Positions 38,472 through 41,096 of a stretch of 60,592 nucleotides of DNA are shown in pieces. The position numbers and the translations under genes were made by a program. Position 1 is the first letter of the stretch, and each line of letters starts with the position of its first letter. The notes under the pieces are model-generated. The model was not told the origin of the DNA. It made no database searches and saw nothing but the letters and a program-made list of their open reading frames with translations. This stretch comes from Erysipelotrichaceae bacterium (GTDB lineage Bacteria > Bacillota_I > Bacilli_A > Erysipelotrichales > Coprobacillaceae). Where the stretch lies: positions 1 to 60,592 of the forward strand of contig JAJQFG010000104.1 of the NCBI GenBank assembly GCA_021201315.1, written 5' to 3'.

Positions 38472-40435
38472 AAATATTTTTCAACAACATGATCAACAGT
38501 AAAACCATAATTTTCTATCATTTTACTAGCAGGTGCACTTTTACCAAATTCATTGACACACATCATTTGTCCATCTAACCCAACATATTTATACCAACCA
38601 AAATCACTGCTCATTTCAATACCTAAACGTTTACGCATAGATGTAGGTAAAACACTTTCTTTATATTCATTTGATTGTTGATCAAATAAATCCATAGAAG
38701 GCATTGAAACAACACGAACATCATGACCTTTTTCTAATAAAATCTTTTGAGCTTTAATGGCTAAAGCAACTTCACTTCCACTAGCAATCAAAATACCATC
38801 TAATGTCTCTTTTTCACTTGATACGATATAAGCACCATGGCATACATCATCATAAGTAGCATGTGTAATATTTTCAACGTTTTGACGTGTCAATATCAAA
38901 GCTGTTGGTTTGTCTTTTGTCTCAATGGCTTTCTTCCAAGCAGCACACATTTCATAAGCATCAGCAGCTCTAATCACTTGCAAATTAACCATTGAACGAA
39001 GCATAGCAAGTTGTTCAATTGGTTGATGCGTTGGCCCATCCTCACCTACAGCAATAGAATCATGTGATAAAGGTAATATAATAGGTAACTTCATTAAACA
39101 TGACATTCTTAAAGCAGCTTTAAAATAATCACTAAAAACAAGGAAACCTCCAGAGGCTACTTTTAATCCCTTATGCAAAGTAATACCATTCATGATACAA
39201 ACCATCGCAAACTCACGAATACCAAAATAAAGGTTTCTACCTGCATAATTATCACAACCAAAACGTCCACCATCTTTAATGACGGTTTTAGTAGAAGAAG
39301 CTAAGTCAGCTGTACCGGATAAGAAATTAGGATTCTGTTTAGCAATTTCATTAATGATTTTTTCGCTAGTTACACGTGTAGCTTCACTTGTCCCCTCAGG
39401 AAATTGTTTCATCAATTCATCATAATCTAAATGATATTGATCATTAATCGCATCTTCTAATTCTTTTGCTTCAGCAGTATATTTTTGTTTATAGTTATTT
39501 ACTAGTTTTTGCCATTTTTTATATTGTTTTTGCCCTCTTAAAGCAACTTTACTATTAAAATCATCATATACTTCATCAGGAACATAGAAATCCTCATGAT
39601 CAAAACCATAAGACAACTTAGCATTTTTGCCATCTATTTCTCCTAAAGGAGCTCCATGAACTGTATTAGTACCTTGATTTATAGAACCATAACCAATAAC
39701 TGTATCCATAATAATTAGTGTTGGCTTAAAAACATCTTTCTTAGCTTTTTTAATAGCTTTTAAGATTGCTTCAGTATCATTGCCATCATTAACATTAATC
39801 ACTTGCCATCCCATAGCTTCAAATCTTTTTTTCACATTTTCACTAAATGCTAATTCTAATGGACCATCCAATGTAACATGATTTGAATCATATAATACAA
39901 TAAGCTTACCTAAAGATAAATGACCAGCTAAAGAAGCACCCTCATAAGTCACGCCTTCTTCCATATCACCATCTCCACATAAAACATACGTATAATGATC
40001 GATAATATTATAATCCTTTTTATTATAACGATTCGCTAAATAACGTTCTGCTAAAGCCATCCCCACAGCAGTAGGTATACCTTGACCTAAAGGACCACTA
40101 GAAGCATCAACGCCATCAGTTACATGATATTCAGGATGACCTGGAGTCCTACTATTCCATTGTCTAAATTGTTTCAAATCATCCATTGATAAATCAAAAC
40201 CAGATAAATGAAGTAAACTATATAATAATGCAGAAGCATGACCACTTGCAAGTACAAAACGATCACGATTAAACCATGAAGAATCCTTAGGATTCACTTT
40301 TAGTTCATTCGTAAATAAAGTATATAAAGCCGGTGCAGATCCTAAAACCATACCAGGATGTCCTGAATTGGCTTTATTAATCATATCAATTCCTAAAGAT
40401 CTAATAGTTGCAATTGATAATTCTGATTGATTCAT
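38462..40435 (-). CDS. tkt: Transketolase
   Basis: 657 aa. TPP-dependent transfer of two-carbon units in the pentose phosphate pathway, supplying ribose 5-phosphate and erythrose 4-phosphate. N-terminal NKANSGHPGMVLGSAP, ASSGPLGQGIPTAVGMALAE, GDGDMEEGVTYEGASLAGHL (TPP motif); middle RNLYFGIREFAM; C-terminal HDSIAVGEDGPTHQPIEQLAMLR. Full length. GGAGGAAG precedes ATG 40435. Preceded by a T-box leader, which ties its expression to an amino acid; the B. subtilis gene is not known to have one. Neighbour order DUF896(ynzC)-tkt-sirA-yneF is conserved. Confidence 0.96.
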   Translation of the reverse strand: MNQSELSIATIRSLGIDMINKANSGHPGMVLGSAPALYTLFTNELKVNPKDSSWFNRDRFVLASGHASALLYSLLHLSGFDLSMDDLKQFRQWNSRTPGHPEYHVTDGVDASSGPLGQGIPTAVGMALAERYLANRYNKKDYNIIDHYTYVLCGDGDMEEGVTYEGASLAGHLSLGKLIVLYDSNHVTLDGPLELAFSENVKKRFEAMGWQVINVNDGNDTEAILKAIKKAKKDVFKPTLIIMDTVIGYGSINQGTNTVHGAPLGEIDGKNAKLSYGFDHEDFYVPDEVYDDFNSKVALRGQKQYKKWQKLVNNYKQKYTAEAKELEDAINDQYHLDYDELMKQFPEGTSEATRVTSEKIINEIAKQNPNFLSGTADLASSTKTVIKDGGRFGCDNYAGRNLYFGIREFAMVCIMNGITLHKGLKVASGGFLVFSDYFKAALRMSCLMKLPIILPLSHDSIAVGEDGPTHQPIEQLAMLRSMVNLQVIRAADAYEMCAAWKKAIETKDKPTALILTRQNVENITHATYDDVCHGAYIVSSEKETLDGILIASGSEVALAIKAQKILLEKGHDVRVVSMPSMDLFDQQSNEYKESVLPTSMRKRLGIEMSSDFGWYKYVGLDGQMMCVNEFGKSAPASKMIENYGFTVDHVVEKYLEM

Positions 40436-40464: not shown

Positions 40465-40735
40465 AAAAAAACTCTCATCCATAAGGGCGAGAGATATCAT
40501 CTTCGTGTTACCACCTTAATTCATCTATATATCACTATATAGACCTTACCGAGTACGCCATATTGGTTCATACTCTGATGCTTTAACGGGCATAACCGGA
40601 CAAGCCTACTTTTATTTCAGTTGCCAACTCCAAGATGAATTCAACTATCTCCTAACATTTCTTTACACCAACCAGAAACTCTCTAAGCTTATTCGATAAT
40701 CTACGCTTCTTTTCACAGTATTTAATAGTAGTTTA
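40465..40735 (-). promoter_or_regulatory. T-box riboswitch leader upstream of tkt
   Basis: Transcribed from the - strand. The T-box/antiterminator core AAGGTGGTAACACG (40504-40517) matches the consensus AGGGTGGnACCGCG. It is followed by the terminator CTCTCGCCC...GATGAGAG and seven T (40464-40493). Upstream there is Stem I (AGAGAGTTTCTGGTTGG; then TTGAATTCATCTTGGAG near 40630-40645). The best specifier is TTC (Phe) at 40637-40639, followed by the usual A; the UGGU bulge would pair with tRNA ending ACCA. Uncharged tRNA would allow read-through into tkt, which starts 29 nt past the terminator. Confidence 0.85.
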
Positions 40736-40742
40736 TGTCAAT

Positions 40743-40771
40743 ATTTTATGCTGAACAACAACATTTGTCAA
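40743..40771 (-). promoter_or_regulatory. Sigma-A promoter of the T-box-tkt transcript
   Basis: On the - strand TTGACA (40766-40771), 17-nt spacer, TAAAAT (40743-40748). Transcription should begin near 40736, giving a leader of about 300 nt. Confidence 0.75.
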
Positions 40772-40784
40772 CTTATTTTAAATA

Positions 40785-41012
40785 TTAATTAATGTTTTTC
40801 TCTCTCTTTAATTTTTCAGGTGTAATATCATTACCCTTTTCATCCACAACTTTAATTGATTTCAATTGTTGCTTAAAACCACTTCTAAAAGCTGTTAAAT
40901 ATTCCTGACGCAAAACCTGTTGTCTAGTCTTCTCTTTCTCAGTTAAACCAACAGTTTTGCTTTTATGTGCCAATTCATTTATTTCTGCGATTAATTTTTC
41001 ATCAATAGCCAT
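40785..41012 (-). CDS. DUF896 (YnzC/UPF0291) protein
   Basis: 75 aa: MAIDEKLIAEINELAHKSKTVGLTEKEKTRQQVLRQEYLTAFRSGFKQQLKSIKV is the UPF0291 signature. B. subtilis ynzC lies at the same place before tkt, near the lexA-yneA SOS genes, which are not seen here. Start set at ATG 41012 after GGAGG; an in-frame ATG at 41054 has no ribosome binding site. Function unknown. Confidence 0.9.
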   Translation of the reverse strand: MAIDEKLIAEINELAHKSKTVGLTEKEKTRQQVLRQEYLTAFRSGFKQQLKSIKVVDEKGNDITPEKLKREKNIN

Positions 41013-41096
41013 ATTTCCTCCATAATTTACAATAATAGCATAACCATTTATCAAAAAAAGTCAAGTAAAAATAAAGCAAAACTCTTACTGTAAATT

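Follow-up and report, generated by a model that had tools for sequence, protein, structure and literature searches.

A phenylalanine-type T-box leader, paralogous to that of the aroF-pheA operon, upstream of a transketolase gene in an Erysipelotrichaceae bacterium

The transketolase gene tkt1 of an Erysipelotrichaceae bacterium is directly preceded by a full T-box leader with its own promoter and terminator (Table 1), as we confirmed in the 60,592-nucleotide stretch of DNA that was analysed (the window). Very probably, this leader is a canonical transcriptional T-box that responds to tRNA-Phe and controls tkt1 in concert with the phenylalanine operon, having been recruited after a duplication of tkt. 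We also favour, with distinctly less assurance, the broader reading that a duplicated central-carbon gene joined an amino acid regulon in one step, by transplantation of a regulatory cassette, and became a transketolase induced by phenylalanine starvation, dedicated to erythrose 4-phosphate and equipped with a retuned, weaker terminator.

Table 1. Positions, in window numbering, of the leader elements, tkt1 and neighbouring features.
Feature	Position	Strand	Description or evidence
6S RNA	41286-41124	-	Rfam, 51 bits
DUF896 gene	40785-41054		
Promoter	40743..40771	-	-35 TTGACA 40771-40766, -10 TAAAAT 40748-40743, 17-nt spacer, 11/12 consensus matches
T-box leader (Stem I, Stem II/III region, antiterminator)	40480..40725	-	RF00230, 109.1 bits
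Specifier codon UUC (Phe) in bulge GAAUUCA	40637..40639	-	Rfam alignment and structure mapped onto the sequence
Antiterminator	40482..40518	-	lower helix UAAGG...CCUUA, upper helix CGA...UCG; Rfam alignment, pairs counted
T-box core AAGGTGGTAACACG	40516-40503	-	sequence
UGGU of T-box bulge	40510..40513	-	sequence; complementary to ACCA of tRNA-Phe
Intrinsic terminator	40465..40493	-	hairpin 40493-40472 and seven T; folding
tkt1, transketolase, 657 aa	38462..40435	-	TIGR00232, 868 bits, cut-off 682
AT-rich hairpin and T-run at tkt1 stop codon	38470-38441		read by eye

The element matches the Rfam model RF00230 over its complete length (model positions 1-219, E = 3e-23) and, with 109.1 bits (gathering score 93), passes the curated threshold that defines a T-box riboswitch. 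The consensus promoter, Stem I, T-box core and terminator, all announced for positions 40465-40735 in the original prediction, were recovered by the full-model match, by the agreement of the promoter with consensus and by the hairpin with its run of seven T, and both the coordinates and the strand proved right. The antiterminator and the terminator have CUCUCGCCCUUA in common and are therefore mutually exclusive structures; folding gives -9.7 kcal/mol for the terminator and -4.0 kcal/mol for the forced antiterminator. Between the leader and tkt1 there is neither a gene nor a further terminator, and a ribosome-binding site precedes the tkt1 start at 40435. The hairpin and T-run at the tkt1 stop codon suggest a monocistronic transcript that ends there.

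When the covariance alignment is mapped on the sequence, GAAUUCA is left unpaired in the Stem I specifier bulge and, by the usual rule, which reads the codon at bulge positions 2-4 as numbered from the 3' side (PMC7778990), it is UUC, for phenylalanine; the model thus puts the expected Phe codon, and no other, at the specifier position. UUC is invariant in the aligned Phe leaders (10/10), and the same column holds, among paralogues of the same genome, UUC in the aroF(1) and pheS leaders and UAC in the aroF(2) leader. The tRNA-Phe gene of this genome, with anticodon GAA and a 3' end A73-CCA, fits both UUC and the UGGU of the bulge. Codon and tRNA are as expected of a member of a Phe regulon, and regulation of tkt1 by phenylalanine is what these sequence features predict.

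The genome holds 26 T-boxes. The tkt1 leader is 86.8% identical to the C28 DAHP synthase leader, 66% to its Tyr-type paralogue and 45% to the pheS leader (86-88% to the aroF-Phe leaders of the genus overall), and its promoter is homologous to that of the aroF-Phe leader. The parent operon has the gene order aroF-aroB-aroA-aroC-pheA-aroK, that is, five genes of the shikimate/chorismate pathway and pheA, which encodes chorismate mutase and prephenate dehydratase. The earlier statement that the leader lies before tkt only is correct within the window; elsewhere in the genome, out of that statement's view, this close paralogue heads the aroF-pheA operon. In the leader tree, the four tkt leaders form a single clade (99/99), joined to the four aroF-Phe leaders of the genus (joint branch 94/90). 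BLAST comparison of the tkt1 and parent leaders gave one block (window 40772-40459), which begins just 5' of the -35 box and ends at the T-run of the terminator; the regulatory cassette was therefore copied whole. Since DAHP synthase is associated with T-boxes throughout the family, the aroF leader appears to be older than the tkt1 leader.

The leader was found before tkt1 in all the species of the genus examined (4/4), in every case at a 6S-DUF896-tkt locus. This gene order, which in the window comprises a 6S RNA upstream of the DUF896 gene and tkt1, recurs without a T-box in other genera and is the ancestral locus of the family. A second transketolase, tkt2, is present in each species of the genus, 80% identical to tkt1 (in G003 it is a fragment); the two transketolases form sister clades in the tree, and no T-box precedes tkt2 in any of the four species. 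The named relatives by tkt, at 77% identity, are Candidatus Stoquefichus and Longibaculum muris. Genome-wide T-box searches in two genomes of neighbouring genera (G008 and G009) gave 23 and 24 matches, none near tkt; among 80 tkt loci, the T-box core motif is present only in three congeneric genomes, and no T-box was detected before tkt outside the genus by Rfam on 20 of those 80 loci, nor in 30 class-wide loci (with Clostridia thinly covered) or 19 further loci of the family. The original prediction had counted as adverse the case of relatives carrying this leader on a synthetase gene instead of tkt; in other genera a closely related leader sits on DAHP synthase, a consumer of erythrose 4-phosphate, and not solely on a synthetase. 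Neither this distribution nor the codon placed by the covariance model, the other adverse case named there, refutes the prediction.

We hypothesize that, when phenylalanine is short, uncharged tRNA-Phe(GAA) would pair with the UUC of Stem I and with the UGGU of the antiterminator bulge, and that this pairing would stabilise the antiterminator and allow RNA polymerase to read on into tkt1. As aroF-aroB-aroA-aroC-pheA-aroK carries the same, parental leader, both units should answer the same signal, and tkt1 would provide erythrose 4-phosphate at the time when the Phe branch and DAHP synthase are being induced. The idea that control of transketolase by tRNA-Phe is a logical form of precursor supply is in fact supported by the position of the parent leader at the head of the aroF-pheA operon, the regulation itself being predicted. 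Regarding the order of events, tkt would have been duplicated in the ancestor of the genus, where the 6S-DUF896-tkt copy would have gained from the Phe operon its cassette of promoter, T-box and terminator, the other copy, tkt2, keeping a plain promoter for housekeeping or routine needs.

A single U to C change in the strand shared by the two structures is present in all tkt leaders (4/4), which deprives the terminator of one pair and the antiterminator of the lowest pair in its upper helix (now A-C). The folding energy of the terminator is -9.7 kcal/mol in the tkt leaders, versus -17.2 to -17.4 kcal/mol in the aroF leaders of the genus. This weaker predicted terminator may result in higher basal read-through into tkt1, so that regulation may be leaky, and the higher basal expression predicted by the folding model would be sensible for a central enzyme. 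The same difference in energy, found in the four species, also makes it conceivable, although unlikely, that tkt1 is largely constitutive through its weak terminator, with a small rise on phenylalanine starvation, and that the benefit lies mainly in a strong promoter. Nevertheless, the antiterminator is weakened as well, the terminator still has 6 + 2 pairs with six or more T, and the riboswitch part equals the remaining leader in conservation, all of which speak against this reading.

Erythrose 4-phosphate, made by transketolase, is joined to phosphoenolpyruvate by DAHP synthase. Transketolase acts one step before DAHP synthase, and its tie to phenylalanine synthesis is plausible and indirect. 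Glucose-6-phosphate dehydrogenase was looked for in the genome and not found, and transketolase would thus be needed for erythrose 4-phosphate; a transaldolase-family protein, which is present and could also yield this compound, counts against such a need. The arrangement suggests that erythrose 4-phosphate can be the limiting aromatic precursor in bacteria that lack the oxidative branch of the pentose-phosphate pathway. As no glucose-6-phosphate dehydrogenase was found, transketolase would also make pentoses, and phenylalanine control of tkt1 could then serve pentose/nucleotide supply or general carbon flow and not the erythrose 4-phosphate of aromatics. We consider this improbable, because the sensor before tkt1 is the one controlling DAHP synthase and pheA, and because the T-box-free tkt2 is on hand for general needs.

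The tkt1 leader is clearly a transplanted copy, and the T-box before cstA1 in Bacillus methanolicus has been argued to be a relic (PMC4342826). That the tkt1 leader is likewise a relic of rearrangement, placed before tkt1 by accident and without regulating it, is very improbable, given that promoter, terminator and ribosome-binding site are kept with it in the four species and that nothing intervenes before tkt1. Between these species, identity from T-box to terminator reaches 93.3% (97.0% in the antiterminator-terminator part), against 49.8% at the fourfold-degenerate sites of tkt1, 71.6% in the terminator-to-start stretch and 79.0% 5' of the promoter. A leader identity of 93% beside 50% at fourfold sites argues that it is not a relic, and this reading was rejected as the main one. 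Over the ten Phe leaders, 94.3% of the cells of the structure are paired and seven pairs are changed on both sides; the Stem I helices are conserved, some of their pairs with double changes. Most double changes come from the two outer aroF leaders and are therefore better evidence of a common fold than of selection acting on the tkt copies in particular.

That the leader works but reads another tRNA (Ile, by AUU in frame -1, or Ser, by UCA in frame +1) or several aromatic tRNAs is hardly credible: some T-boxes are known to use alternative specifier frames (PMC7778990), but both frames were rejected here, since the covariance alignment puts UUC at the canonical position, paralogous leaders vary precisely this codon (UUC or UAC) along with their operon, specifiers ending in U, such as AUU, are rarely matched by a tRNA (PMC7778990), and the tRNA-Ser(UGA) found in the genome has a discriminator G, which pairs with UGGU by wobble only.

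Other loci of this genome were also noted. The two DAHP synthases (L151 8231-7215 and 13967-12951 (-), G000:C28) have almost identical C-terminal parts and different N-terminal parts, a pattern suggestive of gene conversion between the copy under Phe control and the one under Tyr control. A Phe (UUC) T-box (L152 1244-1468 (+), G000:C100), approximately 6 kb from tkt2, precedes genes for an ABC-type substrate-binding protein, a permease and an ATPase (TrpX-like), which probably constitute a phenylalanine importer. An Ile T-box (AUC, 103 bits; L263 6907-6678 (-), G000:C99) immediately precedes a gene resembling acetate kinase, after which come ORFs similar to subunits of a 2-oxoacid:ferredoxin oxidoreductase; this locus looks like an Ile-controlled route from 2-methylbutyrate to isoleucine by reductive carboxylation, and the other three species of the genus also have T-boxes of like length and score.

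The published lists of T-box targets that were consulted (PMC11477304, PMC4342826) name synthetases and genes of amino acid synthesis and transport, and a full-text literature search for T-boxes with transketolase or erythrose gave nothing relevant, the main T-box surveys being beyond its reach and an earlier mention being possible. Transketolase is, as had been anticipated, an unusual target: the RNA and its mechanism are ordinary, and the novelty, within the reach of this search, lies in the target gene and in how it was recruited. In this small set of gut-type bacteria, the tkt1 Phe leader would carry T-box control beyond amino acid genes to the supply of central-metabolic precursors, and it provides a clean, recent example of riboswitch regulon growth through cassette duplication, in which the copy can be compared with its parent leader, with a sister gene that has no T-box and with relatives that lack this control. 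The T-box of the aroF-aroB-aroA-aroC-pheA-aroK operon (G000:C28:17586-17835) shares with the tkt1 leader UUC, structure, 87% identity and homologous promoter and terminator, and differs in its stronger terminator, in having the Phe operon as target and in its family-wide occurrence, whereas the tkt1 copy is limited to one genus. The Tyr-type leader of the second DAHP synthase gene (G000:C28:23302-23535) is paralogous to the tkt1 leader and differs by UAC and by an identity of 66%. With the transcriptional T-box class in general (RF00230; pheS and tyrS leaders) the tkt1 leader has in common the Stem I specifier bulge, the core, the antiterminator/terminator switch and the match to both anticodon and acceptor end; while the usual targets of this class act in aminoacylation, amino acid synthesis or transport, that of the tkt1 leader is a pentose-phosphate enzyme.
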